In this document: positions 4,841-61,810 of the stretch, in pieces
Layout of the letters: the number at the start of each line of letters is the position of its first letter
Numbering within the stretch: position 1 is the first letter of the stretch
Source of the DNA: Pelagomonas calceolata
Taxonomy: Eukaryota; Sar; Pelagophyceae; Pelagomonadales; Pelagomonadaceae
Length of the DNA stretch: 64,000 bases
Reading direction: 5' to 3'
NCBI GenBank assembly: GCA_918797485.1
Contig: CAKKNE010000006.1
Location: forward strand, 1,364,001-1,428,000
Translations under genes and position numbers: made by a program
Notes under the pieces: generated by a model
The model's database searches: none
What the model saw: the letters and a program-made list of their open reading frames with translations, nothing else
What the model was told of the DNA's origin: nothing

Positions 4841-4862
4841 CTAGCGGCCTGTAACACACTAG
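4841..4862 (-). promoter_or_regulatory. CTAG bipartite palindrome, copy 1a
   Basis: A 22-nt element with CTAG at both ends. On the minus strand it has left arm CTAGTGTG, a centre TTACAG, and a right arm GCCGCTAG. It lies between the F-box gene and the methyltransferase gene, about 180 bp from each ATG. The 382-bp spacer holds a second copy and nothing else recognised. Confidence 0.6.
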
Positions 4863-4879
4863 GAAGCAGACTTAGTGGG

Positions 4880-4901
4880 CTAGCGGCCTGTAAGACACTA
4901 G
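4880..4901 (-). promoter_or_regulatory. CTAG bipartite palindrome, copy 1b
   Basis: Second copy in the same divergent spacer, same orientation, 39 bp after the first and differing from it at one position. On the minus strand the arms are CTAGTGTC and GCCGCTAG. It is 144 bp before the methyltransferase ATG. Two tandem copies in one spacer argue against chance. Confidence 0.65.
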
Positions 4902-5044
4902 CATGCAGACTGGGTTTTTGTCAGCCTCTTGTCAGCCGCATACTTGCTCTCGTGGTGGGGGAAGCTCGCGTTACATCCCTTTGCACTGCGCGTGGCCGCG
5001 CCGGCAACCAAAAACACTCATTCTCCGCAGCCGAGACAGCACCA

Positions 5045-6451
5045 ATGGAGGTCACACTCGCCTGGCCGACCGCCCCCGGCGGCGCCGCGACACGTCTCAC
5101 CGAGGACGACTTCGACTGGAAAGCGGCCGACCGGGCAACATTAACAAAACCGCTCGCGCTGGTCGCCACCGACGCCGACTGCACGCTGGCCATCGCGGGC
5201 GCCCACGTCGTCAGCACCGCCCTCGTCTCGAACGCGCGCAGCGTCGAGGTGTCGGGGGGCTCAACACCTGCAACGACGACGTACAAGGGCACGGTCCGCG
5301 GCGACCAGCAGAAGCAGCCGCACCGCTTCCGGGCAGAGCTGAAGGCGCTCGACGCGCCATTTGTAACGCTTAAGCTCCTATCGAGGAAAGGTGACGCGCG
5401 GACGCTCTCCATCGATTCTCTAGAGATCGTCGTCGACGCCGCCAGGACGCCGGAGGCAGCGCCGCCGCCTCCTCCGGCGCGCGCCGCGGCCACCGCCGCG
5501 TCGGCGTCGTCATCGTCCCACCAGAAGACGCTCCTCGCCGGCGCGGCGCTGCTCGACGCCGCCGAGCGGCGCCTGACGGCCCACGTCGACGCGGCCTGCG
5601 CGCGCGTGCAGCGCCACCTCGGCGCCAAGCTCGACGCGCAGGGCGCGGCGCTGGCGCGGCTCGAGGCCGCCGTGGCGCGGCTCGGGACGAGGCCTGCCGC
5701 CGCCCGGTCTGAGGCCGCCGTTGCGGCCCCGCGGGCAGCCGTCATCCCGCGCGCCGGGGAGGACGATGCCGTCGGCGCGGCGCTGAAGAAGACGACGGTG
5801 CGCTGCGGCGACCACGCGATGATGCTGTTTCTCCGCGCGGCGGACGCTACATTAGCGCCGCCGGCGAACGGCGCGGACGCCGACGGCACAGGTCTAGAAT
5901 TATGGGGCGGCGGGCGCTACCTGGCCAACTTCCTGACGATCCGGCCCGGCGTCGTCAGGGGATGCAGGGTCCTGGAGCTCGGTGCTGGCGCAGGGCTCCC
6001 GGGCCTCGTCGCGGCGCGCTGCGGCGCCGCCGAGGTGCTACTCACCGACGGCGACGCGCGCGCCGTCCGGCTGCTCGAGAAAAATATTGCCGCGAACCCG
6101 TCGTCGGAGTGTCCCGTCGAGGCGGCGGCCCTGGCGTACGGCGCGGCTCCTCCGCCGCCGTCGGAATCCAACCTGCCGACGGTCGTGCTCGCCGCCGACG
6201 CGCTGTATGTGAGCAAGCACTGCGCGCCCTTCGGGGACACGCTGAACGCGGCACTTCAAACACCGAAGGACGTGTGCTACCTCGCGCACGAGCCGCGGCG
6301 CGCCTGGTCCATGAAGGACGGCTCCCCCGTCCAGGACGCGACGGACGATGTATTAGATGCGTTCCTCGACCTCTGCTGCGACCTGGACGTGTCCGAAGTC
6401 GGAAAAACGGGCAATGTGCAGCTCTACCGCATCGCGCGACCATGTATGTGA
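5045..6451 (+). CDS. METTL21/FAM86-type protein methyltransferase
   Basis: A 468-residue protein whose C-terminal half is a seven-beta-strand SAM-dependent methyltransferase of the lysine methyltransferase (Methyltransf_16) family. ELWGGGRYLANF precedes motif I VLELGAGAGLPGLVAA; LLTDGD is the acidic motif II region; VVLAADALYV is motif IV, the usual place of the family's DxxY-type signature. The N-terminal half carries a beta-rich segment (residues 1-130) and an Ala-rich coiled coil (about 150-230), both unusual for this family. The substrate cannot be told from sequence. The chosen ATG follows the promoter palindromes; the upstream in-frame extension is promoter sequence. The stop lies 67 bp from the stop of the SET gene on the other strand. 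Confidence 0.85.
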   Translation: MEVTLAWPTAPGGAATRLTEDDFDWKAADRATLTKPLALVATDADCTLAIAGAHVVSTALVSNARSVEVSGGSTPATTTYKGTVRGDQQKQPHRFRAELKALDAPFVTLKLLSRKGDARTLSIDSLEIVVDAARTPEAAPPPPPARAAATAASASSSSHQKTLLAGAALLDAAERRLTAHVDAACARVQRHLGAKLDAQGAALARLEAAVARLGTRPAAARSEAAVAAPRAAVIPRAGEDDAVGAALKKTTVRCGDHAMMLFLRAADATLAPPANGADADGTGLELWGGGRYLANFLTIRPGVVRGCRVLELGAGAGLPGLVAARCGAAEVLLTDGDARAVRLLEKNIAANPSSECPVEAAALAYGAAPPPPSESNLPTVVLAADALYVSKHCAPFGDTLNAALQTPKDVCYLAHEPRRAWSMKDGSPVQDATDDVLDAFLDLCCDLDVSEVGKTGNVQLYRIARPCM

Positions 6452-6517
6452 TAAATATTAGTCCTATATTCGTGATCGTCCTCCGCGCCCCGGCGTGTCC
6501 ACGGTTCCACGCCCAAA

Positions 6518-9500
6518 TTAGTTCATCGTCCCCTTGCAGTTCGGCGCGCCGCAGTAGCACGGTATTTTATCATCTTCGATGGGAAACTTGTAGTCGTACA
6601 TGACCTCCTCGCCCGCCTTGATGTCTTTCAAGGCTATTATAACGATCTTCCGCGTGTGCGGGCCTATTTCCACGGTCTTCGCATACGCATTCGGACTACA
6701 ACAGTGGTTGATGAACCTCCCGATGTGACCTCGCCGCGTCGCGTCGACAATGCAGTCCTCGTCCAACCGAAACAAATAACAACTCCCAACCCCGGCCTTG
6801 TCGTAGTACTCCTCCCGCTTGTCGCCCATGTTATTCCGAATGACCTGGCCGACGTACTCAATGATGAAATCGTCCTTACTAACGTCGACTTTTGTATAGA
6901 GGCCCCAGCCGTGGATATGACTGCGACGCACGGCCAGTCGCTCAAGCACGGGCACGGCTCGCAACTCGCGGTACTTCTGGGCCGCCCATTCCTTCGAACC
7001 CTCCTTAACTTCTTCTATGTACCCTTTTCTCGACTTGACGACCGCATTATTTAAGCGAGCTTGGCGCTCTTCCCGCAGCCTTCCAGCCTCTAACGCTTCG
7101 GCCTTTTCCTGTTCTAAATCCTCCTCGGCTTGGGCTAGTGCGCGCGTGATCCTCGAGCGTCTAGCAATGTCGTCGATCGCGTCGCGAGGCTCGGATCGCG
7201 CCGAACCGGAAATGGCCGGCTTGACCTGCGCATCTCTGATCGCGGCCTGCCGTTGAGCCAGTAGAATATCGTGGGGCGTCGGTCTGACATAACAGAAGCG
7301 ATACGAGATAATTCTTCTACTATTTTTACCCCGTTCCTGGGCCTCTAACTGATGGAGGTTCTTCCGATCCGATAAGGGCATCAATTCAGCTTCTAAAGCA
7401 TAAGATGTCACTCTAGGCATCGTTTCTATCCTAGCACGTACAGCTGGCAACGAGAACCCGAAGAAACCAGAACCGTCGTCACAGAGCCCGTAAGGAGGCG
7501 CCTTCCGCCGGAAGCGATGCCGCCCGCCTTTGACGCGGTCCTTCCACATACTTTGCTCCTTCAAATTCCTAACACGTCGTAAAACTTCCCCGACGGCCTC
7601 ACCAACAGTGTCGCCCACACATGGGATCGTGGGCGCGTCGACGGCTTGAATAATGAACTGCGCCTTGTACTGTAACTTTCTTCCCACAGTAACGGGAGCG
7701 GCAGCAACCCGACACATGTACAGTGTTCGGCAATTGTTACGCGTAAAGGAGTAGAAAATTCTACAAGCCCGGTAGTTCAACGGGAAGATCCTGTCTGAGG
7801 TATGGAAGCCGACGTAGCCGGCCGGAGCAGCTTCGCCCAACCGAAAGATAGAGAGAGCACCTATTCTAAATTGAGGATGCAAGGCTAACGACATGCGCGT
7901 CCGGTCCTCGAGCCACTGCGCCCGGGCCTGCACCGCCGCACTCTCCACGGGAAGCTTCGGCTCTTCCTTCTTCTTCTTGCCGCGCGTCTTCTTCTTCTTC
8001 GGCTCGTCGAGCACGTCGTCCAAATCGTAGGTCTTCTTCTTGACCTGGCGCTTGCCTCGGCCGGTGCCGCCTTCCGGTATTTTACCTTTCCTCGACTTCT
8101 TCGCGCGCTCCCTAGCCTTCTCCCTTTCTCGCTCTCGTTCTTTCGCTTCCTGCTCCTCCCGGATCAGGTCATCTTTCCGCGCCTTCATTTCCGCTTCGTA
8201 GGCCTCCTGCGACGACATGGCCGCCTTTTCCCCTTTTTTTCGTTTCCCGTCGAAGTTGGAGGCCACTCGGATGGCGCCGGCGACGTCTCCCAGATACGTA
8301 GCTAGCGGCGTCTGCAAATGATCGGGAGGCGCTTCGATCTCCGGTAGGAGAGGAACACCGGGAGGTGGTAACTCCGACACTTCCGCGAAGACCTCCAGTC
8401 CGTTGCCTGAACAGGTATGGCGACCACCGTCACCGGCGTATCTCAGAATGACGCCCCGTCCTTCTAAGCTTTCATCAACAACAACGGTCGCGCGCGAGCC
8501 TACTCTACGAGTAGCGGGGTCGCCGTCCGTATCGGCTGTTACGATGACCTCCGACCCGGCGCGGATCCCCTTGAGCTGGGCCTGGGCTTTCCGAACGGCG
8601 ATGGCGGCTTCCGTGGCATTTTTTAACAATGTAGCGTTCTTCTTCTCGCGTCGCGCTTGCGCTCTGGCGCCTGAGGCGCAATCCGAACAGAAGACGTGCG
8701 AGCCGCCGACACAAACAGCACCGGCATGAGCACCACACCGAAAATGGAAGTTCCGCTTACAATTCGTCGAGCAGCAGCCCATCGTCGCGCCCGGTTTGTG
8801 GCAGTGCGTGCATTTCAGGTTTCGGGATCGTCGCGTCGCGTCCTGGACGTGTCTGAAGAGTCGAGTGTGTTCGTAGACCTCAGAAGACCATAAAGCACAG
8901 TTCGCGTGGACCCAGTAGTCCAAGACTAAGCCTGTTGGCTTGATCGTGTTCGACTCCTCGACTTTTTTCAGTTCTCGGTCTCGCACCGGTACTAGCCTTC
9001 CCGCGAACGCACAATCACCGTTTCTCTTACAGAGCTCACATATTCTATAGTCCTCTGATTTATATTTTGAGAGGCAGATCTCTCTCAAATCGTCGGTGCC
9101 GAACAATTGTCTATCACTCACACCATTCGCGGGTCTCGGGATGGGCACTCGTACCTCGTCCGGCCGTCGAGCTCGTCTCAGTTTCCGTTGTTTCTGGACA
9201 TCTGAGACTTTGCAGGCGGCCGTGTAGGCGAACTCGCCCTCGCCTAAGTGCGACTCGAACATACCGTTCGCGGGATCAGATCGACACCTCGGGCAGGCCG
9301 GAGGCGAGCCTTCCTCCAAGTAACCGAGGTACTGTTCCGCGCATTCGCCGTGGTAGCCCTGGCCGCAGAAGCCGCACGCGACGGGGTCCCGACCGCGTAA
9401 ATAGCCCTGGGACGACCTTCTATACCTCGACATAAGACAATCGCCTCGAGCCCCACAATTGCCATGCAAAGGCATCCGCTGGTAGTACTGCACCGACCCC

Positions 9501-12237: not shown

Positions 12238-12258
12238 CTAGTGTCCACATGCCGCTAG
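12238..12258 (+). promoter_or_regulatory. CTAG bipartite palindrome, copy 2
   Basis: Left arm CTAGTGTC and right arm GCCGCTAG with a shortened centre. It is 238 bp from the SET-gene ATG and 150-170 bp from the ankyrin-FN3 ATG. Nothing else was recognised in this 407-bp divergent spacer. Confidence 0.6.
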
Positions 12259-16475: not shown

Positions 16476-16541
16476 CGTAAGTGTTGTGTTTTTATACTTA
16501 CAGGGAGCTTTCAATCCCCATCGGGAGCGGGTGCCTTTTTG

Positions 16542-16563
16542 CTAGTGTCTTACTATCCGCTAG
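16542..16563 (+). promoter_or_regulatory. CTAG bipartite palindrome, copy 3
   Basis: Arms CTAGTGTC and TCCGCTAG around a TTACTA centre. This is the one strong copy that lies in a same-strand spacer, between the ankyrin-FN3 and the SAM-RING genes, about 205-225 bp before the latter's ATG. It indicates the element serves promoters in general rather than only shared ones. Confidence 0.6.
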
Positions 16564-16766
16564 CGTCACGCGAACTTGAAAATCAAGCAAGCAAAGCGCT
16601 TTGTATAGCTGCCCGCGCACCAAAAGATGAAGCAAGCAATGCCCATCGCCAGAGTCTGGACGCGGTAGGCTGCCCGCGCACGGCCTGCGGCCCGCGCACA
16701 AGCGGGCATCATCCTGCACTTGCCGCTGCGCTGCGCTGTGCCAGCCGCTGCGCTACAGCCGCTGCC

Positions 16767-18491
16767 ATGGCCACCGCGCCCTATGAAGACCGTGCCGAGG
16801 AGGTCACGTACCTGCTGGCGCAGTGCGGCCTGGCGCGCTACTTGCCGGCGTTCAGGAATGACGACGTCGACGACTCCTGCCTCAACACCCTGACGCCGGA
16901 GGACCTCCACGACCTCGGGCTGCCCATGGGACCGCGCGCGCGCCTCGCGCGGGCGATCCGGGAGCGCAACGCCGCGGCAGCGGCTGCCGCACCGTCGGCC
17001 GCGGCAGCGCCCGCCGCACCGTCGCTGCCGCCTCCGCCCCCACTGCCGGTGTCGATGCGCGCCGCCACGCCGCCGCCGTTCGATAACGACGACGACGACG
17101 ACGACCTGTGCCAGATGTGCTGGGATAACGCCATCGATTGCAAATGCAAACACTGCGAGAAGGCCTTCTTCTGCAGCGCATGCGTTGCAAACTGGCGGCG
17201 GCAGGGCACTGCCAAGGCGCAGGGCTCGAGCTGTCCGACGTGCCGCCAGCCAGAGGAGGGGCAGCTCGAAGTCGTGGACCTGGAGGGCCGGCCGCTCGAC
17301 GCCCCGCGGGCGATGGCGTGGGGAGGAGCCGCACCGGCGGTCGTGCCCTTCCCCGGGGCCGCGGAGGCCGAGGCGCGGCGGCGGCGCGAAGCTGAGGCGC
17401 GCGCGGCCGCGGACGCCGACGCGCTGCGACGGCGGCGCGAGGCCGAAGCGGTGCGGGCTCGCGAACGGCGCGAAGCGGAGATGTACGCCGCTGCCGCCGA
17501 GGCGGAGGCGCGGCGGCGGCGCGAGGCCGAGGCCCGCGCAGCACTTAACGCGGCGGCCCTCGCGACCTCTGTCGCGGCCAAGGACGCAGGAGTGTGGGCG
17601 TCGCGTGCGTATGAGGGCAGATCCGCCGTGCGTGAGGAAGCCCATCGGCGCGCCCGCGTGACGAAACCCTCCGACGTCGGCGGCGACCACGCTGCTTACG
17701 TCGATGCCTACGTCGCGGCCGTGACCGGTGCCTTTGAGGACGCCGAGGCGCGCGCGGCGGACCGGGCCGCCGCGGCGGCCGCCGCGCGCGGTGCCCACGA
17801 CGCGGCGGTCGATCGGGACAACGCGGCCGCCGCTGTTATCTCGGCCTTCGTCGACGAGGCTGTCGCGAGTTGTCGTCGGGACGCCGCCGCCGCGGCGATC
17901 GCCGAACTCACTGAAATTGCCGGCGAGATCTTGATGCTTGTCGACGCGCACGGCGGCACGATAAGCACGACGAGCCTCGGGAACGCCTACAAAAAATGGT
18001 ATGGGAAGGACCTCGACTATCCAGGGAAGCTGACAACGTTCCTCAAGGACCTCCCTGGAGTAGAATTGATCCACGACATTAGCGCTAGGTTTCCGTCATG
18101 GATACGCCGGGCGACCGCGCTCGCGCCGATAACCAACCCCCGGGTTGCCGCCGACGTACACCGGATCCTGCAGGGGGCGGCCGCCGAGCCGGCATCCGCG
18201 GCGCCGTCGCGCAGCGTGAGCCCCGACCCCACGGCTGCTCCCTGGACGCCGGCGGCGGCGCCGGCGGTGCCTGCCTTCCATTCTCACCCGGGCATGTATT
18301 CCTGGAGGGCCCCGCCGCCGTCGCCGGTGCCCATGGGCGCCTATGTCATGCCGCCGCCCCTACCTGTGCCGCTCCTACCTGCGCCGCTCCTCAACCCGTT
18401 CGTCCTCCAGCCCGTCCCGCAAGCAAGACGGTCGCGCAACCGGGGCAAGAAGAATGGGAAGAACGAGGTGTGTGTAAGTGAATTCATGTGA
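16767..18491 (+). CDS. SAM-RING-LOTUS domain protein
   Basis: A 574-residue protein. N-terminal SAM domain (about 5-72: LLAQCGLARYLPAF, LTPEDLHDLGLPMGPRARL). A RING-like Cys cluster (about 112-165: CQMCWDNA, CKHCEKAFFC, CPTCRQP) suggests an E3 ubiquitin ligase. An Ala/Arg/Glu coiled coil with repeated EAEARRRR blocks follows (about 195-260). A LOTUS/OST-HTH-like unit sits at about 385-455 (EILMLVDAHGG, LDYPGKLTTFLKDLPGVELI), a fold that binds RNA or DEAD-box helicases. The tail is Pro-rich. Near the stop, GTAAGT at 18474 is a perfect donor, so the last six codons may be intronic and the SHOCT frame downstream could be the next exon. Confidence 0.75.
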   Translation: MATAPYEDRAEEVTYLLAQCGLARYLPAFRNDDVDDSCLNTLTPEDLHDLGLPMGPRARLARAIRERNAAAAAAAPSAAAAPAAPSLPPPPPLPVSMRAATPPPFDNDDDDDDLCQMCWDNAIDCKCKHCEKAFFCSACVANWRRQGTAKAQGSSCPTCRQPEEGQLEVVDLEGRPLDAPRAMAWGGAAPAVVPFPGAAEAEARRRREAEARAAADADALRRRREAEAVRARERREAEMYAAAAEAEARRRREAEARAALNAAALATSVAAKDAGVWASRAYEGRSAVREEAHRRARVTKPSDVGGDHAAYVDAYVAAVTGAFEDAEARAADRAAAAAAARGAHDAAVDRDNAAAAVISAFVDEAVASCRRDAAAAAIAELTEIAGEILMLVDAHGGTISTTSLGNAYKKWYGKDLDYPGKLTTFLKDLPGVELIHDISARFPSWIRRATALAPITNPRVAADVHRILQGAAAEPASAAPSRSVSPDPTAAPWTPAAAPAVPAFHSHPGMYSWRAPPPSPVPMGAYVMPPPLPVPLLPAPLLNPFVLQPVPQARRSRNRGKKNGKNEVCVSEFM

Positions 18492-20530: not shown

Positions 20531-20552
20531 CTAGTGTCTTACATGCCGCTAG
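20531..20552 (+). promoter_or_regulatory. CTAG bipartite palindrome, copy 4
   Basis: A consensus copy: arms CTAGTGTC and GCCGCTAG with centre TTACAT. It sits midway in the divergent spacer, about 220 bp from the ATGs of both the renalase-like gene and psb27. The 443-bp spacer also holds the 41-bp tandem repeat. Confidence 0.65.
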
Positions 20553-23463: not shown

Positions 23464-23481
23464 CTAGTGTCTCACAGCTAG
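23464..23481 (+). promoter_or_regulatory. CTAG bipartite palindrome, copy 5 (short form)
   Basis: CTAGTGTC and AGCTAG are joined by a CACA centre; four bases of the right arm are missing compared with the consensus. It lies in the 572-bp spacer between the Obg and cyclin genes, 269 and about 290-300 bp from their ATGs. I recognised nothing else in the spacer. Confidence 0.5.
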
Positions 23482-25754: not shown

Positions 25755-25776
25755 CTAGCGGCGTGTAAGACACTAG
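25755..25776 (-). promoter_or_regulatory. CTAG bipartite palindrome, copy 6
   Basis: On the minus strand the arms are CTAGTGTC and CCGCTAG around a TTACACG centre. It is 137 bp from the GNAT gene's ATG and about 82-103 bp from the ATG of the small mitochondrial-type protein, in a 239-bp divergent spacer. Confidence 0.65.
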
Positions 25777-32873: not shown

Positions 32874-32894
32874 TTAGTGTCTTACAGCCGCTAG
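32874..32894 (+). promoter_or_regulatory. CTAG bipartite palindrome, copy 7
   Basis: Arms TTAGTGTC and GCCGCTAG around TTACA. One end base differs (TTAG for CTAG). It lies 172 bp from the POLA2 ATG and about 72-92 bp from the TPR-gene ATG in a 263-bp divergent spacer. Confidence 0.6.
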
Positions 32895-43818: not shown

Positions 43819-45447
43819 CTACCGCCGCTTCTTCTTCCGCGGCGGCTGTCTAGATACCGGCTCCGGCACGAGCCGCGCGTCCAGCAACTTTCGAGGATCG
43901 TCGCAAGCGCCCGGCCGCGTGCCCGCCAGCATGGCCCGAGCCTGGGCCGCGACCCGCGCGTCGACGTGGCGCGCCAACAACAGCAGCTCCCAGGCCGGCG
44001 CGCCGAGCGCGCTCGCCTGTTCTGCGGACGCCGCCGCGGCGTTATACGAAGCGCCCGCACTGTGGGGCCCGCGCGCCTCGTCGTCCTCGAGGAGGCATTC
44101 CAGGATGGGATCCCTCTTCATAATGTTCCGGGCCGCCGCGACGAAGGCGGCGCCGTTGTATCTGTGTAAAGCTAGGAGTAGGGCGCGCCTTAGTACTGCG
44201 GCCGCCCTTCTCGTCTCGAGGCGCGACCTTTCTACCGCGGTCCTCAGAACGCATTCCAGCGCTTGTGAGTCCACACTTCCATCGACACATGCTTGTAATA
44301 AAGCGCGAAACACGCCATCGACGAACGCGCCGTCGTCGTCCAACTCCAACGCACTCCGCGAGACGTCAGCTAATACGAGAGCGGCGTCGGCGCAACACAA
44401 GGCCGTCTCGGGCTCGCACTGGTCGTCTCGAGCGATGCCTCGTATCTGGTTCAAACATGCGTCGACGACGTCCGCGTTCGCCGCTGGTGCTAATTTTTTA
44501 AGCCCACGCAACGCCGACGGCAACAGAACCCGTCTCGTACGAGCGTCGCCTCGGTACGCCGCCTGCACGACCCGCCCGTAGATCAGCCCGAGCTCATGCA
44601 CTAGAGAGCGAGCGTTCCGCCTCGTCTCCTCGGCATCGACGCGCGCGGCCGTTTCCTTCATGTCTTTGGCCGCCTGGATCTCGTCGTCGCGCGCTTTCCT
44701 CGTCTTCGTCTTGACCTTCTTCGCGGCTTTTTGAGGTTGTTTTTTGGTCGCGAGCTTCCTCAGGCGATTTTTCTCGAGAAAAGCTTCGTCGTCGAGAGCT
44801 GCGGGCGCTGCCAAGTCGGCTAACAGGTCGAGAGCATCACATCTTCTAAGACCGCCCTTCCTATCGCGTAACAAGCCATGGATCGCCTTCGCGACGCTTA
44901 GTGACGCGGCACCGCTCCGGTCATCTGATATGGCCCTTCGCAAGGACTTGAGCGCTGATTCCCTCACTACCTCATCAGCGTGATCTAGACCAGGTGCGGC
45001 CACCCTCAAAACATCCTCGGACAGGTTAAAGGAAGGTCTTCGAGCATACAACTCCCCGCAACACCTCATAGCAACAGCCACTAATGATGCATCCGTATCT
45101 TTATTCTTAGCGGCTTTGCTCAAAGACGAGACGAACACGCCGTAGGCCTTGACGAGCCACTCCTCCTTGAGCCGGAGTTTCTGCGTCTCGCGCGTCTGGG
45201 TCTGGTCCCTTTCTTTTGCGGAGGCTATGCGTACCCGATACGCGGGCAAGACGTCGAGAAAAACGGCGCACTGCGAGAGCCAGGCCCTCGCCTTTCTCGT
45301 CGTGGACGTGGCGCCGTCGGCCATCGCTTGCAACTGCTTGATCAGAGGTTCCTCGTGGTCCTGCTTCACGAGCGCTGCATCCGGATCACTTGTTATTGAT
45401 TCACATAGTACCGCTAGTTGGCCGAGCCACTTCTGGTCGCTCGGCAT
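43819..45447 (-). CDS. NOC3: Nucleolar complex protein 3 (Noc3-like)
   Basis: A 542-residue protein of the Noc3 family, which acts in pre-60S ribosome assembly and in loading the replication complex. AVFLDVLPAYRVR matches the family's LLDVLPGYRIR. NRLRKLATKKQPQKAAKKVK is a basic nuclear/nucleolar signal, and the CBF/Noc domain (about 290-460) shows ARSLVHELGLIYGRVVQAAY and LLPSALRGLKKLAPAANADV. The C-terminus ends in a basic KKKRR. The start is taken at MPSDQKWLGQL because the earlier in-frame ATG (45744) would overlap the start of the divergent gene and run through the promoter palindrome. It is shorter than yeast Noc3, mainly at the N-terminus. Confidence 0.8.
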   Translation of the reverse strand: MPSDQKWLGQLAVLCESITSDPDAALVKQDHEEPLIKQLQAMADGATSTTRKARAWLSQCAVFLDVLPAYRVRIASAKERDQTQTRETQKLRLKEEWLVKAYGVFVSSLSKAAKNKDTDASLVAVAMRCCGELYARRPSFNLSEDVLRVAAPGLDHADEVVRESALKSLRRAISDDRSGAASLSVAKAIHGLLRDRKGGLRRCDALDLLADLAAPAALDDEAFLEKNRLRKLATKKQPQKAAKKVKTKTRKARDDEIQAAKDMKETAARVDAEETRRNARSLVHELGLIYGRVVQAAYRGDARTRRVLLPSALRGLKKLAPAANADVVDACLNQIRGIARDDQCEPETALCCADAALVLADVSRSALELDDDGAFVDGVFRALLQACVDGSVDSQALECVLRTAVERSRLETRRAAAVLRRALLLALHRYNGAAFVAAARNIMKRDPILECLLEDDEARGPHSAGASYNAAAASAEQASALGAPAWELLLLARHVDARVAAQARAMLAGTRPGACDDPRKLLDARLVPEPVSRQPPRKKKRR

Positions 45448-45608
45448 GGCTGCAATGCAAGGCTGTGCGGCGATGACGGCCAATGCGTGAGACCACGGCG
45501 CGTGTTTTGCTAGCGTTCGCTGCGGCGCAGCCGCTCGAGTATTTAAACGCCGCAAAGCACCCGAGCGGCACCGATGCGCCTCGGGCGACGACACAGCGGC
45601 AAGTGCAG

Positions 45609-45629
45609 CTAGCGCGATTGACACACTAG
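45609..45629 (-). promoter_or_regulatory. CTAG bipartite palindrome, copy 8
   Basis: On the minus strand the arms are CTAGTGTG and CGCTAG with a TCAATCG centre. It is more diverged but keeps both CTAG ends at the right spacing. It is 162 bp from the Noc3 ATG and 114-134 bp from that of the coiled-coil gene. Confidence 0.5.
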
Positions 45630-45742
45630 CTTTTGCGTGATGAGGAGCGTATCCTCTTCCATAGATCGCAGGGTGCTGCTGAGAGCCAGCGACGATTGCT
45701 GCGGACCTAAACCGTGCGTCGCCGCGCGGCATCGCTTGAACC

Positions 45743-48340
45743 ATGCACTTGCGACTGCTCTACATCGTGGCAACAGCAGCCGCTCTCGTCGCGCCGCCGC
45801 AGCGGTCGCGCTTGCCGCGCACCGTGACTTACGGCTTGCGCGATCGTCTATCGGGTGCATTCCCTAGGACCACAAAAGTCGCGAAACGGCTCGGCAACGC
45901 ATTTAAACGAAACCGTGACGAGGACGACGCGGCCGCGGTCGCCGCGGCTGCCGCTGCGGCCGCCGAAGCGGCGCGCGAGGAGGAAGAACGACTCGCCTCC
46001 GAGGCGGCAGAACTCGCGGCGGCCGAGCAGCGCGCGGCGGCCGCTGCCGCGGAGGAGGCGCGGGCCGTGGCCGAGCGCGATGCAGCAAGGGCGGCGAGTG
46101 AGGCCGCCGCCGACCAGCTCGCAGAAGCGGCAGCTGCGACGAAGGTCGAGGTGGTCATCGAGCCAGATACCGCACCTGCACCGCCGGTCGAGGAGGGGCC
46201 CTCAGTCGCTGACCTTGCGGCCGCCGCCGAGCGTGAGGCCGCGGCATTGGTTGAAGAGGTGAAGGCTATTGCCGACGAGGCCGAGGCGGCGGCGGCGCGC
46301 GCGGCCGAGGAAGACGCGGCGGCGGAGGCGGAGGCGGCGCGCGCGGCGGCTGAGAAGCGCGCCGCAGCGGACCGCGAGCAGGCCGAGGCCGAGGAACGGC
46401 GCCTTGCTGAGGAACAGGCGGAACGGGATCGCGTCGCCGCGGAGCAAGCCGAGGCCGACCGCGTCGCAGCGGAGGCGGACGCGGCGGCGCGGAAAGCCGA
46501 GCAGGAGGCCGAGACGGCACGGCTCGAGGCCGAACGGCTGGAAGTGGAACGGCTCGATGCCGAGCGCGTCGCGGCGGAGGAGGCCGAGGCCTCGCGCATC
46601 GCTCAGGAGGAAGCGGAAGCGGCGCGGCGCGAAGCCGTCGAGGCGGAGCAGCGTGCCGAAGCCGAGCGCCGCGCCGAGCAGGAGCGGGCCGAAGAAGCCG
46701 AAGCCGCGGTGGCGCGGGAACGCGCCGAGGAGGAGAAACGGCAAGCGGAGGCGGCCGCCGCAGAACGGGAGCGCCGGGAACTCGAGGAGAAGAAAGCCGC
46801 CGAGGCGCAGCAGCGCGCCGAGACCGAGGCCCGCGTGGCCGCGGAACAGGCGGACCGGGAGCGCGGCGAACGCGAAGCGGCCGAGGAGGCAAAGCGCGTG
46901 GCCGCCGAGGAGGAGGCACGCCTCGCCGCCGAAGCGAAGGCCGAAGAGGAACGTCTGAAGGCCGAAAAGGCCGAGGCCGAACGGTTAGAACAGGAGAGGA
47001 TCGCCGCCGAGCGCGCGGAGGCCGAACGACTCGCTGCGGAAGAGGCCGAGCGGGCGCGCCTCGAGGCCGAGGCCGAGGCGAAGGCGCAAGCCGAGGAGGC
47101 GGCCAAAACGATGACCGCCGCCGACAAGATGCGGGCCGCCGGCGAGGCACGGCGCGCCGCGGCCGAGGCCGAACGCGCGCGCAACGCCGAGGCGCTCGCG
47201 GCGGCGGAGGCGGCGCTGGCGCGGACCGCCGAAGCCCTCAAAAAGGAGGCTGCACCGGCGCCCGCGCCCGCGCCCGCGCCCGCGCCGCTCGTGAAGAAAC
47301 AGGACGATTCGCTCGCGGCGAAGGCGCTCGGCGCGTTTAGCGGCGCGTTTGGCAAGGCACTAGCGCCGGTCGCGGACGCCGCAGGCCAGGTGGCGTCGCA
47401 GGCCGCCGCGGCGGCCGGCGACGCCCTCAAGGAGAAGTTCGACGAAGCGCAACGGGAAGCCGAGGCGCGCCGCGCCGTCGAAGCGGCCGCGGCGGAAGAG
47501 CGGCGCAAGGCCCAGCGGGCCGCGGACAAGAAAGCCAACGAGGCGAAACGCGCCGCCAAACGCGAGGCCGACAAGCGGCGACGCGAGGAGGAACGCGTCG
47601 CGCGACGCGAGGCGGAAAAGCAAAGACGAGAGAAGGAACGCGCGGCCGAAAGGGAGGCCCAACGCATAGTGGCCGCCGAGAAAGCTCGAATGGCGCGCGA
47701 GGCCGCGGTAAAGGAGGCTGCCGACGCGGCGGCGGCGGCAGCCGCAGATGTCGCCAAGGGCGCCGCCGACGCGGCCGCGGGCGTTGTTGTCAACGCCGCG
47801 GATGCCGCGGTGAGCGGCGCCGCGCGGTCGGTGAAGTCGACGGTCGACGGCGTGACCGGAAAGATCGTCGAAGAAGCGGTGGCAAAGCCGGCCCGCGCCG
47901 CCGCGGAATTGCCCGGAAAATTGGCCTCCAAAGCTGCCGGCGCCGTCGCCGACGGGGCGAAAGGGGCCGCGGCCGCCACGGGCCAGGCGGCCGCCGACGC
48001 GGCGAAGGGGGCCGCTGCCGCGGCTCAAGGTGCCGCCGTCGGCGCTGCGTCTGCGGCTGGCCGCGCCGCTGCGGATGCCGCGAAGAACGCGGCGACAGGC
48101 CTCCTCGACGCGCTCAACCCCTTCAAAAAGGGCTCCGCCGACGCGCTTTCGAAGACCGCCGCGCCGCCGCCGCCGAAAAAGGCCGGCCCGAAGCCCGTGT
48201 CGCGCGAGGACACGGCGAAGGTCAAGGAGCGGTGCATGGCGAAGGTATTGATCCTCGTCGACCAGGGCGTGATCACCTCGGGTCAGGTAGAAAAATACTA
48301 CGAGGAGATGGTCGAGGACGAATTGAGTAAGCTCCGATGA
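45743..48340 (+). CDS. Plastid-type coiled-coil / LEA-like protein
   Basis: An 865-residue protein. The leader ([19 protein letters not shown]) followed by an Arg-rich stretch suggests secretory or plastid import. Residues about 55-500 are almost purely Ala/Glu/Arg ([17 protein letters not shown] blocks), a very long charged alpha helix or coiled coil resembling TolA. An Ala/Pro hinge follows (about 503-515). A second Glu/Arg stretch (about 560-650) leads to an Ala/Lys-rich region (about 655-790) with repeated [10 protein letters not shown] units like LEA-type amphipathic 11-mers. The end is globular and conserved-looking ([34 protein letters not shown]). Function unknown; it may bridge or stabilise membranes. 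Confidence 0.65.
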
Positions 48341-49935: not shown

Positions 49936-50545
49936 TTTGCCTGCGGGCGGTGAGCGGCGGTCGCGCGCGGGGGCCTCTTTCTCTCTACAACATCGCTCTT
50001 GTTCGCTGCTGCGTCGATGGCGTCCGCTTGCGCCCTAGTTTTGAGCGCACCGCTGCCGCGGCGGCGTCGCAGAGCCGGCTCGAGCGGTGCTGCCTCGCCG
50101 CTGCTGCGTGCTCGCTCCGCGTCGCGGTGCCTCGACGCTTTGCGAGACGCTTCCGAGGGGGCTCCTGGGTCCTGTGACGGGACGCCGGCACGCACCGGCT
50201 GTCAGCTGTCGCGTGAGACGGCAATCAAAGCTTATCTCCGATTTTGTTGAGCGACGGCCGCGGGTTTTGGAAAGATTTTTGCGCCGGCGTGTAGCGCCAA
50301 GCAGCCCTCAGAAACACCTCGAGGACGGATAGGCCCGCTTACGGACAGCTGGGCGGGATTACTAGTGTCTTACAAACGCTAGGTACACAAACTCGCGGTC
50401 GACCACAAGCCGCGCTATCTCCACGTTGGCAAGCGTTCGCGACGTCTGGGGACTCTCCACGAGCCACCTCGCCAGCCGCCGCAACGCCTTGCGCTTCGCC
50501 GCCGCACTAGCAGCACGCAAAAGCGACAGCACAAGCAAAGACAAA
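49936..50545. other. Long divergent spacer between RPS3 and Ski8 genes
   Basis: The region contains a CT-rich tract near 49975-49995 close to RPS3, one introner-core word (GCGTCGATGGCGT near 50011) and the CTAG palindrome (own entry) nearer the Ski8 gene. No coding frame is convincing. Confidence 0.5.
50362..50382 (+). promoter_or_regulatory. CTAG bipartite palindrome, copy 9
   Basis: Arms CTAGTGTC and ACGCTAG around TTACAA. It is 164-184 bp before the Ski8-like ATG and 427 bp from the RPS3 ATG, the largest distance seen on either side. Confidence 0.6.
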
Positions 50546-51846: not shown

Positions 51847-51893
51847 TGGTATTCTTAAAATTTACGGGGGCGATATGGGGGTCCACGTGCCGC

Positions 51894-53521: not shown

Positions 53522-53542
53522 CTAGTAAGTCTACGTAGCTAG
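53522..53542 (+). promoter_or_regulatory. CTAG palindrome, diverged copy
   Basis: CTAG at both ends at the standard spacing, with middle TAAGTCTACGTAG, only partly like the consensus. It sits in the divergent spacer between the FG-GAP and GH81 genes, 237 bp and about 183-203 bp from their ATGs. The rest of this 439-bp spacer holds nothing recognised. Confidence 0.35.
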
Positions 53543-56392: not shown

Positions 56393-56517
56393 GCTAGGAC
56401 TGGTGGGCGGAGCCCCAGATACCGTTTTTCAAAACAGGATGCTTCCGTTAACGATTATTCAGTTACGGTACTAGGGCCAGTGGGCGGAGCCGTCCCTCAG
56501 GCTCAGGCTCAGGCTAG
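56393..56517. repeat. Paired GGGCGGAGCC repeats and inverted CTGAG word
   Basis: Related 22-bp words end in GTGGGCGGAGCC at 56393-56414 and 56470-56491. They are followed by an 18-bp GGCTCAGG-type word (56500-56517) that is the exact inverse of 35262-35279. The block lies in the spacer after the GH81 gene. Confidence 0.5.
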
Positions 56518-56564
56518 ATGACCTAGCTGCCTGATGACCTAGTGCCTGTATGACCTAGCTATTA
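56517..56564 (+). repeat. Three 16-bp tandem units carrying GATGACCTAG
   Basis: GATGACCTAG at 56517 and 56533 and TATGACCTAG at 56549 are exactly 16 bp apart, with GCCT-type ends between. They lie about 320-370 bp upstream of the prenylated-protein gene, which has no CTAG palindrome of the standard type, so this array could be its regulatory element. The 571-bp spacer also has a GC-rich run from 56720 to the ATG. Confidence 0.6.
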
Positions 56565-56885
56565 TGTGCAAACAGCTGCAGCGCAAAGTTTGGCACGCAA
56601 GCGCAAGCCCAACACTGAGTTTCGCTCTTGGCATATTATAGCCCTTTAGAGCTGACAGCCCTGGGACAACGGCAGGAATCGCCGCACGCCGTGGTGCGAA
56701 AAAAAATACTGGCCTGAAGTCAGCCGCCGCGCGCGCGGTACGCGCCCCCGGCCCAGCCGCTGCGCACCGCTCGCGCGCCACCGAGCCGCTGTGGTGCCGC
56801 GCCGCCGCCGCTGAGCCGCTCGCCGCCCCGCGCCGCTTGAGCCGCTCGCGCGCCGCCGAGCCACCGCGGCGACCGCGCCGTCACC

Positions 56886-57296
56886 ATGGGCAGCGACGGC
56901 GAATCAACATCAACAAACGGCGAGCGCAAGGAGCCCGAGCCGCCCGCGCGCGAACCGAAACCGACGCCGCGCGGCAGCCCCGGCGCCGAGTCGCCTCGAC
57001 GGAAACCCTCGCCGCGCGACGACCCCGCGTCGCAGTCCATCCTGAAAGCTCCCACAGAAAGGAGTCGAGGAGGGAGAAAACCACCGGAACCCACGAAGCG
57101 CCTGAGCTGGAAGGACGGTACTTTTGATGATGCCCCCGGCCCGGAACTCGCGGAGGTGCACTACGCCGAGGAGCTCCACTACAGCCCGCACAGCCGCGAC
57201 CGCGAGGTCGCGCGGCGGCAGGCCGCGCGCGCGTCGGGCCAGCTGGACGAGCTGGACGCGATGCCCCAAGGGAGGGCGTGTTGCGTCATATCCTAA
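56886..57296 (+). CDS. Small CaaX-prenylated protein with PP1-binding-type motifs
   Basis: A 136-residue disordered protein. The C-terminus CCVIS is a CaaX box (C-V-I-S) predicted to be farnesylated, with an adjacent Cys that could be palmitoylated, so it would be anchored on a membrane. An internal SILK (about residue 52) followed by KRLSW (about 73) resembles the SILK and RVxF motifs by which inhibitor-2-type proteins bind protein phosphatase 1, in the usual order and spacing; Leu replaces the preferred Val/Ile. The N-terminus (MGSDGES) is a weak myristoylation candidate. This suggests a membrane-tethered PP1 regulator. Identity is inference from motifs; no domain is recognised. Confidence 0.6.
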   Translation: MGSDGESTSTNGERKEPEPPAREPKPTPRGSPGAESPRRKPSPRDDPASQSILKAPTERSRGGRKPPEPTKRLSWKDGTFDDAPGPELAEVHYAEELHYSPHSRDREVARRQAARASGQLDELDAMPQGRACCVIS

Positions 57297-57368
57297 CCAT
57301 TAGCATTTAAATTCATCGAGGGACGTAGTTACAACACTAGTAGTAGTCGACCGGGGATATGTGACGCG

Positions 57369-58454
57369 TCATGGCCGCTTGGCGAAGGTCTGCGACACGA
57401 TGAGCGGGAACGCGAGCGTCGCGTCCGCGTACACTTTCACGGGCTTGGCCTCCATCCTGATCTTGCCCCAACTCACGGCCTCGTCCGGTCTAGCGCCTGA
57501 GTCCGAGCCGTCGAACTCCTGCCCCGTGTTCACGAAGACCGCGAAGTTCGCGCCGTTCCTCATTAAATTGGCGTTGCACGTGTGGTGTTTTACGAGGCCA
57601 CCGCCAATAATAATCATGCCCGTCGCCTTGGCCTTCACGGCTTCGTCGTTGATGAGGCGGATATCTCTGGCGATGTCGACGATGAAGCCAGGCCTCTTAT
57701 ACGAGTGAAAATACAACATGTCACCTATACTCCCATCCGTGATCGCGGGACAGAAAACCGGGATGTTGTTCTTGTGGCACCAGTAGTACACGGAGGAAGG
57801 ATCATTGATCTCCTTCCCGAAGCGGTCGATCATGCTCGAGGGCGTCCAGTGGAAGGCTTCTTCAGTAGAAGCTTTGGCGTCGACCTCGTCGTGCATCTTA
57901 TGTAAAATCGGCCGCAGCCAGTCCTCGAACTTACAATACGTGTCGTTCGGCACGAGCAAGTTCCCGATCCTATTCAGACCTTTCGGCCTCAAATCCTTAC
58001 CTCTTAATGCAAAGTCGCCCATCTTGTGCGGTGCCAGGCACTTCATTAAATCTTCTTCGATGCCTCCGCCCGTCGTTACCAGTACATCGACATGTTTGTG
58101 TTGCACGAGGTATCTTATGACTTCCCTCACACCCGACGAGATCATGTTCGAGGTATACGCTAGGAATATTTTTGCCTTCGTATTTCTTCGTACCTCGGGG
58201 CTCTTGAAATCGTCGTCTTCGTTTTCCGTGATGGGCACATCACTTAGACGCCAGGCGCGCATCCTTTCGATCTCTTTCACTGCTAGTCCGATATTCGTGG
58301 CCTGGAAGCCTGTTGTTAGTAGTTTGGCGCAGAGGCCGTCCAGAGAGCGGTCTTTGTCGAAGTCCGGCCCTTGGCACGCGGCCGTGTCTTTTAGCTCACT
58401 ATCGTCGGACTTTTGCAGGACGGCCGCGGCCACGATGCCGGGCATGGCGGCCAT
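57369..58454 (-). CDS. DHPS: Deoxyhypusine synthase
   Basis: A 361-residue enzyme that transfers an aminobutyl group from spermidine to a lysine of eIF5A, in the cytosol, with NAD. Conserved blocks are all present: [73 protein letters not shown], and [18 protein letters not shown] followed by VSWGKI with the catalytic Lys. Length is usual for the family. An alternative start three codons later (MPGIV) is equally possible. The stop lies 73 bp from that of the CaaX-protein gene. Confidence 0.97.
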
Positions 58455-58633
58455 TTTTCAGCGCTGCGCTCTGGGCGTGCGGTTGCAGTGCAGTGCGTGC
58501 AGTGCAGACTGCTTGATGCGGCAATTCGCTCAGTCTGCCGCGAATATGTCTATGTGGCAACGCGTTGCCTTGTTCCTGCTCAAAGCTATCAGCACTCCGA
58601 TGCTCGCCCGGTTTTTGGCTGCATGAGCACTCG

Positions 58634-58654
58634 CTAGCAAGTTTGCTACGCTAG
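58634..58654. promoter_or_regulatory. CTAG palindrome, diverged copy
   Basis: CTAG at both ends with standard spacing (CTAGCAAG and CTACGCTAG arms). It is in the 382-bp divergent spacer between the DHPS and dynamin-like genes, 180 bp and 183-203 bp from their ATGs. The inner sequence departs from the consensus, so it is a weak copy. Nothing else was recognised in the spacer. Confidence 0.35.
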
Positions 58655-58836
58655 CTCTACGCTATTGACCACAGCCGTAAATTGGGCTACTGCGGGTCAC
58701 CGCGTCGTCAGAAGTTCATTACAGTGTCCACGCTGCACCATACGAGCGCGCGCTTGAAAGTCACGTAGCGCCGTCGCCCGTGCAAGGACCCCTGGTACAG
58801 CACCCCTAGAAAGCTCCTCATTTGGTGCGAGCAACG

Positions 58837-60330
58837 ATGTGGCGCCACGCCAGCCGACGAATATTACAAGCCGCGCGACAGACGCGCACGCTCAAGTCCC
58901 TGATCAAGAAACGCCCGCAAGACGACGACGCCTTGCTGGACACGCTCCGATCCTGCACGCAACTCTACGAGTCACATATAGCCCCAACAAATGACACAAC
59001 CATGGGACCCTTAGAAAGGAATTATCAACCGACGATGCTACCCTTCGTCCTACTCCTAGGCAACCACTCCTCCGGTAAATCTTCCTTCGCGAACTACGCG
59101 TTAGGTCGACGAGTCCAGCAATGTGGAGTAGCCCCAACAGATGATGGATTTACGGTCATAGCGCCCGGAGAAGAAGACGCGGACCAGGACGGCCCCGCGT
59201 TAGTATCAGATCCGGATCTCGGCTTCGAGGGCCTCCGGCAATTTGGTCCTGGTTTAGTACAACATGCTAAATTAAAACTGAGAACAGATCTAGCAGCAAC
59301 GAATTTCTGTCTCATCGATTCGCCGGGCATGATCGACGCGCCTGGTGGCTCTACTCTAGATCATGGACATGAAAGAGGCTACAACTTCGAGGCGTCGGTC
59401 CGTTGGTTCGCCGACCGGGCCGACGTCATCCTGCTGTTCTTCGACCCGGACAAGCCGGGCACGACGGGCGAGACGTTGTCCGTGCTGACGAATGCCCTGT
59501 CGGGATGTGATCATAAATTACACATCATCCTCAACAAAGCTGACCGCTTCGAAAAAATTCATGATTTCGCGAGAGCCTACGGGGCGCTGTGCTGGAACCT
59601 GTCGAAGGTGATTCCAAGAAAGGACTTGCCGCGCATCTACACGACGTGTATCCCGCCGGCCGAAGGGGAAGTGCGCGAGGGCCACGGCGACTTAGCGAAC
59701 GGTCTGGAAGATTTGCGACGAACTAGAGATGATGTCATGGCCGAGGTGTTTCGTGCGCCGACGCGTCGAGTGGACAACGCCGTTACTAGACTACGAGATG
59801 CGGCTTCCGTGCTCTTGATGCATTTAGATGTGTGTTCCGCGGCTCGGAGCGCGCGGCGGAAGGAGTTGTTTGCGTTGTATGCCCCTTCAGTGTTAGCGGC
59901 GGCCGCATGTGTAAGTGGCGCCGGCGGGTTGTTCGTTGCCGGTGCGGTCTCGCCTGCCGTTGCTTGTGGCGCGGGCGGCTTGGCGGCGACGGCCGGTCTA
60001 CACTACCTAAACGCGAAGAACTGCCGGCGGAATCTCGAAAGGCTGGACTCGCAGGAGGGCCTGGATTCGTTGTACCGCAAGATCTACGCCAAGGAGAGCG
60101 TGCGGGGCGACGGCGAGTCGCTCGCGACGTGGCACGTCGTCCGGCAGCATCTGCTCGAGAAGGTCGTCCCCGTCGGCGGCGCGGCGTTGGCGCCGGCGGC
60201 GCCCATGGGCGCGCACAAGAAGCTCCGGAAGATTTTAGATGTGGAGGCGCCGCGGCTGCGGCGGCAGGCGGCGCCGGCGACCTACCCGAACGTGCGGCAC
60301 GACGACGGGTCCGAGGCGGCGGTGCCGTGA
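58837..60330 (+). CDS. Dynamin-superfamily (EHD-like) GTPase with a membrane hairpin
   Basis: A 497-residue GTPase. G1 is LLLGNHSSGKSSFANYALG (about 75), the switch region has VAPTDDGFTVI, G3 is LIDSPGMIDAP and G4 is IILNKADRFEKI, followed by the EHD-like helical region. The layout of the G domain, with long insert after G1 and a helical bundle, is dynamin/EHD-like. Near the C-terminus two short hydrophobic helices (LAAAACVSGAGGLFVAGA and CGAGGLAATAGLHYL) form a likely membrane hairpin, and there is no EH domain. This is closer to membrane-inserting dynamin-related proteins. An Arg-rich start (MWRHASRRILQAARQTR) could direct it to mitochondria. Role: membrane remodelling, target organelle uncertain. 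Confidence 0.78.
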   Translation: MWRHASRRILQAARQTRTLKSLIKKRPQDDDALLDTLRSCTQLYESHIAPTNDTTMGPLERNYQPTMLPFVLLLGNHSSGKSSFANYALGRRVQQCGVAPTDDGFTVIAPGEEDADQDGPALVSDPDLGFEGLRQFGPGLVQHAKLKLRTDLAATNFCLIDSPGMIDAPGGSTLDHGHERGYNFEASVRWFADRADVILLFFDPDKPGTTGETLSVLTNALSGCDHKLHIILNKADRFEKIHDFARAYGALCWNLSKVIPRKDLPRIYTTCIPPAEGEVREGHGDLANGLEDLRRTRDDVMAEVFRAPTRRVDNAVTRLRDAASVLLMHLDVCSAARSARRKELFALYAPSVLAAAACVSGAGGLFVAGAVSPAVACGAGGLAATAGLHYLNAKNCRRNLERLDSQEGLDSLYRKIYAKESVRGDGESLATWHVVRQHLLEKVVPVGGAALAPAAPMGAHKKLRKILDVEAPRLRRQAAPATYPNVRHDDGSEAAVP

Positions 60331-60358
60331 CTAATGTAACATTAAAACATCTTACGTC

Positions 60359-61666
60359 CTAGCCATAAGGAGTGTAGTATATTCCACCGCGAAGTTCTAG
60401 GATCTCCGTGATTTCCGCTTGAGCGTCCTGAGCAAACCAGGCATCGTTGCTATACTCCCGTTGCCAGGAGAGCCGAGAGAGCCTCGGGCACGCCATCACG
60501 AGCCGGAGCATGTCGGCGGCGCGAATACCGCGATCCTCCATATAGGACTCTATGTCGTCCACGTCGCCGGGTTCACAGTAACTGATGGTGAGGCCCTGCA
60601 GCGTCGCGGCGGACTGGCTTGAGATTATCCCCTCAACGACGCCTCGGGTTAATGCGCCTATCCAGTTCAGCTCGAGCTCCACCAGAGGGTTTTGCGAGCA
60701 AGCCGCGACGACCTGCGAGTCCGTGGCGTGGTGGGAACTGATATACACCGTCTCGAAGGTGCGAACGCCAGCAAGTAGAACAAACCAGCCTGGATTAGGA
60801 ATTCTTGTCAATTCGGGAATCCACAGCTCCGCGAGGCGAGGAAAGCCGCGCGCCGCTGCCAGAAGGGCGTCCGGCTCTATGTTCGTTTCCAAGCCACTCT
60901 CTCTTTCGCTAAGGCTCGTGAGACGATCGCCGAGCGGCGTGCCGACGATGGCATTGATGAGGTCGGGGAAGATGTGGCAGCCTTCCATATCCATTTCCGT
61001 GGCAGAGGTGCTGCGTGCAGCCGCGACGATATTTTCGAGCTGCGTTGGCCGGTATGGAGGATCATTATCGGATCTACCATCATGAATATCCAGGTACTTG
61101 AGCCGCGGGAAGTGTCGCTCATATCTTTCCGCGGGAGAAACATCGGTCACTACGTCAGAAAAAGATACCACTTCAAGCCTTGGGCAGGCGGCGGCGATGG
61201 CTACAATGGCTTCATCTGAGGTATGTACGTATCTTGGGCCGTGCAATTTGATCAGATTCGGGCAGTGGCGACACATCACGAGTAGCAGGTCAGACGAAAT
61301 GCCGGACGGCCCCAGGTCAAGCTCCCGCAGACCTCCGTTCGTGGAGCGCACAAAATCATACAGAGCAGCAAGCGACGGCGCGGATGTGCCGCTAGCGTAG
61401 AGGTGTACGCAGCCTGCTCCAAACACCTTCGCCATCGCCTCGACGGCCCGGGGCGGAGCCCGCATCGCGCGCGCCTGCCGCGGTACGAATTGCACAGACT
61501 GAAAATTAAAGATCTGCACGTGCGGGATCGCCTTCCTCGCGATCGCGCGTCTCGCGGTGTCTCGCCCGTGCGGCGAGAGTTCGCGCAGGCGCAGCAGGTC
61601 ATCTCGTTTAAGCCAGCATGCGGCCTTGTCCAGCGCGTCCTCGGGGACGCTCGCTACGACACCCAT
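60359..61666 (-). CDS. F-box/leucine-rich repeat-like protein
   Basis: A 435-residue protein. An F-box-like start (about 5-45: VPEDALDKAACWLKRDDLLRL, ARRAIARKAIPHVQI) is followed by LRR-like repeats along the rest: GLRELDLGPSGISSDLLLVM, CPNLIKLHGPRYVHTSDEAI, CPRLEVVSFSD, FPRLKYLDIHDGRSD, FPRLAELWIPELTRIP, LVELELNWIGALT. The combination is typical of SCF substrate receptors, with the LRR as the substrate-binding arc. Substrate unknown. The stop lies 28 bp from that of the dynamin-like gene. Confidence 0.72.
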   Translation of the reverse strand: MGVVASVPEDALDKAACWLKRDDLLRLRELSPHGRDTARRAIARKAIPHVQIFNFQSVQFVPRQARAMRAPPRAVEAMAKVFGAGCVHLYASGTSAPSLAALYDFVRSTNGGLRELDLGPSGISSDLLLVMCRHCPNLIKLHGPRYVHTSDEAIVAIAAACPRLEVVSFSDVVTDVSPAERYERHFPRLKYLDIHDGRSDNDPPYRPTQLENIVAAARSTSATEMDMEGCHIFPDLINAIVGTPLGDRLTSLSERESGLETNIEPDALLAAARGFPRLAELWIPELTRIPNPGWFVLLAGVRTFETVYISSHHATDSQVVAACSQNPLVELELNWIGALTRGVVEGIISSQSAATLQGLTISYCEPGDVDDIESYMEDRGIRAADMLRLVMACPRLSRLSWQREYSNDAWFAQDAQAEITEILELRGGIYYTPYG

Positions 61667-61788
61667 TTGGTGCGCACGGATGCAAAGCAGGTCCCAGCCT
61701 ATTTCTTAAGATGCGAAGCGCTGGCCAGACGAACAATTTGCACGCGTATAGGTCGATATCACGAGCTGCAGCACCTGGGGCCGGTTTC

Positions 61789-61810
61789 CTAGTGCCTTAC
61801 ATGCCGCTAG
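61789..61810 (+). promoter_or_regulatory. CTAG bipartite palindrome, copy 10
   Basis: Arms CTAGTGCC and GCCGCTAG around TTACAT; only one base off the consensus. It is 123 bp from the F-box/LRR ATG and 249-270 bp from the hydrolase-fusion ATG. The same spacer has a 16-bp direct repeat at 61947 and 62032. Confidence 0.65.

Follow-up and report, generated by a model that had tools for sequence, protein, structure and literature searches.

In this study, we ask why a short sequence with CTAG at both ends should recur in the spacers between divergently oriented genes across 64,000 nucleotides of the Pelagomonas calceolata genome (contig CAKKNE010000006.1, here C6:1364001-1428000; hereafter the window). 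An earlier note on this DNA had described the sequence as a 21-22 bp palindrome, of the kind expected for a dimeric transcription factor, and had proposed that it is a bidirectional core promoter element serving unrelated housekeeping genes. We find that the element is genuine and occurs genome-wide, and that divergent spacers are its commonest home. The part of the earlier proposal that is supported is that of a promoter-associated element, probably a protein-binding site, lying beside unrelated genes and not derived from a transposon. The readings 'core' and 'strictly bidirectional' are not supported by what we observe.

The assembly holds 32,445,274 bases in 8 contigs, including contigs of 90,574 and 39,373 bases. 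The published genome of P. calceolata RCC100 comprises 32.4 Mb, with six nuclear contigs, a 90-kb plastid, a 39-kb mitochondrion and 16,667 genes (PMC9481584). All 11 strong copies first noticed in the window are present, and the genome-wide scan proposed at that time gives a clear excess over a control in which the same pattern is read backwards. Specifically, exact-pattern counts of a strict form (CTAGTGTCTTACA-N0-3-CGCTAG) reach 1,412 (702 and 710 on the two strands) against 0 and 0 in the control. A relaxed frame (CTAGTG-N8-12-CGCTAG) is found 3,983 times (2,008 and 1,975) against 20 (13 and 7), or about once per 8 kb. The left part alone, CTAGTGTCTTACA, occurs 1,599 times (795 and 804), and the right part is present for 1,412 of these. 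With up to 3 mismatches and lengths of 20-23, 204 kb including the window yields 14 matches on each strand, none on either strand of the reversed sequence and none in five Markov-1 shuffles (one strand each); at 6 mismatches the separation becomes poor (56 and 57 real, 47 and 36 control). Further, the distance between pairs of CTAG over 254 kb peaks at 17 (13 pairs) and 18 bases (27 pairs), with 0-6 pairs at the other spacings from 4 to 60.

The element is an asymmetric site of about 26 bp, TTGCTAGTGTCTTACA-n-GCCGCTAGC, which, with its outer bases set off, reads TTG-CTAGTGTCTTACA-n-GCCGCTAG-C. Among 39 copies with no more than 2 mismatches, the frame measures 22 bp in 26, 21 in eight, 20 in two, 18 in two and 23 in one; the preferred bases are T, T and G ahead of the frame (31, 31 and 29 of 39 copies) and C just behind it (31 of 39). 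A second centre, CTAGTGTGTC[AG]AT, is found at window position 45609 and in at least six places among the relaxed-frame matches genome-wide, with related forms in a relative considered below (L037 462, L051 1501). The original description needs correction on length, which runs from 18 to 23 bp among these 39 copies, and on symmetry, which is true only of the outer (G)CTAG. At equal stringency, left-right frames number 3,983 (control 20), left-left frames 120 (control 6) and right-right frames 33 (control 30). Interchangeable half-sites would yield many more symmetric forms, and we therefore reject a homodimer palindrome; the dimeric palindrome first envisaged is not supported. The excess of left-left frames over their control suggests that a minor symmetric form exists. 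Information was estimated from 26 copies of 22 bp, all set in one orientation, that fit CTAG-N14-CTAG and agree with the consensus at 12 or more of 22 positions. Over 30 positions it amounts to about 41 bits, a figure somewhat inflated by the choice of copies, and to about 26 bits once the eight CTAG bases used for selection are removed. About 14 bits are enough to address 3,983 sites.

Positions relative to genes were obtained from 254 kb of the 32.4 Mb (C6:1304001-1508000 and C1:1120001-1170000). A coding model trained on this DNA called 77% of it coding, with segments under 200 bp dropped; gene boundaries are those of the model, not of the published annotation, and among the gaps classed as tandem there may be introns or gaps that contain overlooked small genes. 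There are 42 copies with up to 3 mismatches, of which 29 lie in 26 of the 51 divergent spacers and 13 in 12 of the 66 tandem spacers. None of the 50 convergent spacers carries a copy, and none of the 42 falls in predicted coding DNA, in keeping with the earlier observation that coding regions hold no full copy. The relaxed form is distributed in the same way (24 divergent, 12 tandem, none elsewhere), as are copies in the part of the 254 kb that lies beyond the window and was not covered by the earlier note, where 19 of 36 divergent, 11 of 54 tandem and 0 of 36 convergent spacers are occupied. Divergent and convergent spacers differ strongly (Fisher p = 4e-10). The difference between divergent and tandem spacers (p = 0.0003) weakens to 0.02 among spacers of at least 250 bp. 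Finding no copy in 9,032 bp of convergent spacer has a probability of 0.0075 at the tandem density.

Most copies in divergent spacers occupy the middle part of the spacer. The predicted coding start next to the CTAGTGTC end is at a median distance of 231 bp and that next to the CGCTAG end at 205 bp, with distances from 74 to 775 bp. Copies in tandem spacers lie 41-316 bp from the downstream predicted coding start, eight of them oriented with the gene and five against it, two of the eight being a doublet in one spacer. Orientation therefore varies, as the first description had it. The site has direction, yet promoters do not seem to mind which way it points.

The element is conserved at matching places in a diverged relative. 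Exact matches in GTDB species genomes, from a scan that may omit records very near this genome, amount to 5 stretches in metagenome-assembled genomes (MAGs) named Spirochaeta or Desulfobacteraceae. One contig, L034, is 82% identical to RCC100 over 7.8 kb; L037, L050 and L051 match it in syntenic order at 76-94% identity; and L035 matches at 90-96% over part of its length. Because of this identity and these syntenic matches, L034, L037, L050 and L051 are taken to be misbinned pelagophyte DNA. The comparison thus covers close relatives only, represented by such misbinned contigs. In the spacer shared by L034 and its counterpart L039, the element alone aligns, with 22 of 23 bases kept, and the remainder reaches an alignment score of 20, equal to the shuffled 95th percentile (20). 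Three alignments between relative and RCC100 start at a copy (L037 2199; L051 1501) or 3 bp before one (L037 4288, copy at 4291), and from these end points a copy appears to have been kept at all three places. The L037 copies at 462 and 5353 lie between alignments, and those of L050 and L035 inside long alignments, so these have no bearing on conservation either way. All four copies in L037 lie between genes predicted on the same strand, and the element is therefore used outside divergent pairs. Copies also seem to turn over, since a 33-bp match to the element (91%) at C6:2236930-2236962 faces L037 7515-7682, where only CTAGTGTCTTTTATCTAG is present; gain or loss of a copy there is likely.

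The same scan bears on public records. The Spirochaeta sp. and Desulfobacteraceae MAGs in GTDB hold contigs that look like pelagophyte nuclear DNA, which would represent misbinning. They are L034, L036, L037, L044 and L046-L053 in MAG MED672, and L035 and L045 together with L038 and L043 in ERR599032 bins; for L036/L044, L038/L043 and L053 the judgement draws only on short matches, the coding model and the presence of the element. When each MAG is counted in full, the relaxed frame does not exceed its control appreciably (9 versus 7, 1 versus 25 and 1 versus 8), which is what bins made up mostly of bacterial DNA should give.

We favour, with reasonable though not high confidence, the view that the element is the binding site of a putative abundant general promoter factor, comparable to Reb1, Abf1 or NRF-1. 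The asymmetric site would be read by an abundant nuclear protein with sequence specificity, or by two adjacent proteins. Such binding between the coding starts would leave the gap free of nucleosomes and allow RNA polymerase II to initiate to one or both sides, irrespective of the orientation of the site. All three components of this scheme, namely protein binding, nucleosome exclusion and raised transcription, are ones that we infer. More tentatively, we speculate that the element may belong to a promoter-defining system of pelagophytes that has gone undescribed, in which an unusually large or composite DNA-binding complex would fix the open gap at about half of divergent pairs and some single promoters, the information in the site being nearly three times that needed for about 4,000 sites.

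Several observations weigh against a general promoter factor. Under the 3-mismatch rule, 25 of the 51 divergent spacers lack a copy, and those within the window have housekeeping-type genes among their neighbours; a promoter can therefore do without the element. The site also holds far more information than one ordinary factor needs, an excess that points to a protein with many fingers or to a pair of proteins sharing the site. Further, 14 of the 42 copies have a stretch of flank in common with a copy elsewhere, in a different spacer, and duplication may thus have spread part of the family. A search of the 25 copy-less divergent spacers gave no clear replacement motif. Separately, the words CATCGCTGC, GGGGCAGCC, AGCGCTGC and AGGGCTGC are enriched in divergent spacers of the 254 kb both with and without the element, and are possibly further promoter motifs.

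The genes beside the element bear on an alternative that we regard as unlikely but worth weighing, in which the element is the site of a regulon-specific transcription factor for a growth, light or cell-cycle programme. Pfam was run on 30 window proteins, of which 18 lie beside copies, a small sample in which four of the 18 have no match. Assigned neighbours include ribosomal protein S3, the DNA polymerase alpha B subunit, a NOC3-like protein, an OBG GTPase, a cyclin, the photosystem II (PSII) protein Pbs27, a bromodomain protein, lysine methyltransferase and SpoU methylase domains, and a WD40 protein. Growth or ribosome-biogenesis genes are well represented in this list (S3, NOC3-like, OBG, SpoU methylase, DNA polymerase alpha B), and a regulon would also agree with the occupation of just 26 of 51 divergent spacers. 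However, the bromodomain, photosystem and cyclin genes stand among the same neighbours, and about 4,000 sites would be a very large number for a single regulon in a genome of 16,667 genes. Divergent spacers that lack a strong copy flank genes for deoxyhypusine synthase, a tRNA-binding protein, a dynamin-like protein and GH81, among others, so housekeeping-type genes are found there too. There is no clean functional split between carriers and non-carriers, and the claim that the element lies beside unrelated genes stands.

The near-middle position in many divergent spacers, and a length and information content unlike those of an ordinary transcription-factor site, might instead indicate an element of replication origins, chromatin boundaries or recombination whose presence in promoter gaps poor in nucleosomes is incidental. 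We consider this improbable, because tandem spacers are also occupied, close to the downstream predicted coding start, and one copy per 8 kb or so seems dense for origins. A core promoter element of initiator or TATA-like type, at a fixed distance from transcription starts, is somewhat more improbable still. It would account for the great abundance of the element and its confinement, in the sample, to spacers on the 5′ sides of genes. It fits poorly with an asymmetric site that occurs in both orientations relative to tandem genes, and with distances that spread from 41 to 775 bp when measured to predicted coding starts, and a single copy in a divergent spacer would need to serve two starts on opposite sides. 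The earlier wording is thus upheld as to promoter association and unrelated genes; 'core' is not supported, given the mixed orientations and the spread of distances to predicted coding starts, and neither is 'strictly bidirectional', given the 13 of 42 copies in tandem spacers and the four L037 copies between same-strand genes.

There remains the question of mobility. Comparison of flanks gave 26 matching pairs out of 3,486, of which 11 come from doublets inside a single spacer and the other 15 link different spacers. The latter touch the 14 copies mentioned above, with shared stretches that are short and at varying offsets. Identical flanks, which the earlier note had named as the mark of transposon parts, are not the rule, as 28 of the 42 copies share no flank with another spacer. 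A transposon or miniature inverted-repeat transposable element (MITE) is largely rejected on the flank comparison and on conservation in place in the relative. An origin of the copies as leftovers of some dispersed mobile element is hardly credible: the shared flanks of the 14 copies and the two copies that adjoin a dispersed repeat would fit, but most copies have no shared flank, none lies in predicted coding or convergent DNA, and the element is kept in the relative while its surroundings are not.

Doublets 25-70 bp apart within a single spacer occur at window 4841-4901, C6:1341825-1341869 and C6:1361801-1361892, and some carry short duplicated flanks, which suggests local duplication. The dispersed repeat is about 130-160 bp long with a strong hairpin (GTCGCCGATTCATCGGCGGC) and is found at L037 299-455 and 2050-2172, L002 1345-1465, L029 6253-6374, L011 8039-8150 and L010 3679-3770. 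The copy at L037 299-455 has matches in at least 39 places in this genome. Among the matches listed, an element copy follows 7-76 bp further on the same side in five of nine places, between tandem genes where gene calls exist; the two of the 42 copies that adjoin the repeat are both in tandem spacers. Rfam gave no match on L037 at the gathering threshold.

Copies of the element and weak forms in the window are collected below.

Table. Members of the element family and weak forms in the 64,000-nucleotide window, with neighbouring genes where assigned
Feature	Position	Strand	Form	Setting
Copy	4841..4862	-	1 mismatch to strict form (CTAGTGTGTTACAGGCCGCTAG read on -)	Divergent spacer, common with 4880 copy
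Copy	4880..4901	-	Exact	Divergent spacer, common with 4841 copy
Altered-centre copy	12238..12258	+	CTAGTGTCCACATGCCGCTAG; missed at 3 mismatches, assigned by eye	Divergent spacer, bromodomain gene / ankyrin/fn3 gene
Copy	16542..16563	+	1 mismatch	Tandem spacer upstream of gene at 16767 (SAM domain; sub-threshold RING match)
Copy	20531..20552	+	Exact	Divergent spacer, amine oxidase-like / PSII Pbs27
Short copy	23464..23481	+	18 bp	Divergent spacer, OBG GTPase / cyclin
Copy	25755..25776	-	Exact	Divergent spacer
Copy	32874..32894	+	1 mismatch (TTAG start)	Divergent spacer, DNA polymerase alpha B subunit / TPR-like protein (sub-threshold)
Variant-centre copy	45609..45629	-	CTAGTGTGTCAATCGCGCTAG read on -; missed at 3 mismatches, assigned by eye	Divergent spacer, NOC3-like gene / no assignment
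Copy	50362..50382	+	Exact 21-bp form	Divergent spacer, ribosomal protein S3 / WD40 protein
Copy	61789..61810	+	1 mismatch	Divergent spacer, no assignment / abhydrolase + SpoU methylase domains
Weak form	53522..53542	.	CTAG ends 17 bp apart, interior unlike family	Divergent spacer
Weak form	58634..58654	.	CTAG ends 17 bp apart, interior unlike family	Divergent spacer

Nine of the window's 15 predicted divergent spacers hold a strong copy, as originally counted: seven by the 3-mismatch rule, and two through the copies assigned by eye. The two weak forms, once listed with the family, are indistinguishable from chance. Mechanically defined open reading frames overlap some copies (4841/4880 in 4757..6451, 16542 in 16539..18491 and 45609 in 43819..45744), and in each case the coding model puts the gene start past the copies.

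We recognised no description of the element in the literature, a weak statement based on a small part of the matching literature, and the main text of the genome paper contains no use of 'motif' or 'promoter' (PMC9481584). Pelagomonas is an alga abundant in the ocean, and in our judgement little is known of how promoters are organised in photosynthetic stramenopiles. One well-defined element at thousands of promoters would provide the group with a direct handle on the protein, the nucleosome footprint and two-way promoters. The excess of information over need is a puzzle in its own right.

Sites of CTCF or REST-type multi-zinc-finger proteins resemble the element in being about 20 bp long, asymmetric and of high information, and we know of no placement of such sites in divergent promoter gaps of this kind. 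The sites of yeast general regulatory factors are unrelated to the element in sequence and much shorter. The NRF-1 site is a short symmetric palindrome, whereas the Pelagomonas element is asymmetric, about 26 bp long and of unrelated sequence. To our knowledge, the element matches neither the yeast sites nor those of NRF-1 or the GC-box. Viral use was also considered and rejected: the strict form has no match in IMG/VR, in a scan that may leave out records of this genome or very near ones, and the early motif of AaV, a giant virus of a related alga, is a different sequence, AAAAATGA (PMC5917014). Within the same supergroup as Pelagomonas, oomycetes possess INR, FPR and DPEP, which are promoter elements of many genes, INR being YCAYTYY close to the start site (PMC3599244). 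Compared by eye, the element shows no similarity to INR or to the available part of the FPR definition, and the words CTAG, palindrom- and bidirectional are absent from the text of that paper (PMC3599244).

The yeast general regulatory factors Reb1, Abf1 and Rap1 bind promoters and, at many genes, shape both promoter architecture and directionality (PMC9481977). In yeast they restrict noncoding transcription in the divergent direction; the Pelagomonas element, by contrast, favours divergent coding pairs. In a compact sponge genome, the GC-box is present in about 36% of bidirectional and 29% of unidirectional promoters, and Nrf-1 sites lie near starts with no clear fixed position (PMC4773876). 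The yeast general regulatory factors and the NRF-1/GC-box promoters are the closest working parallels to the element described here.

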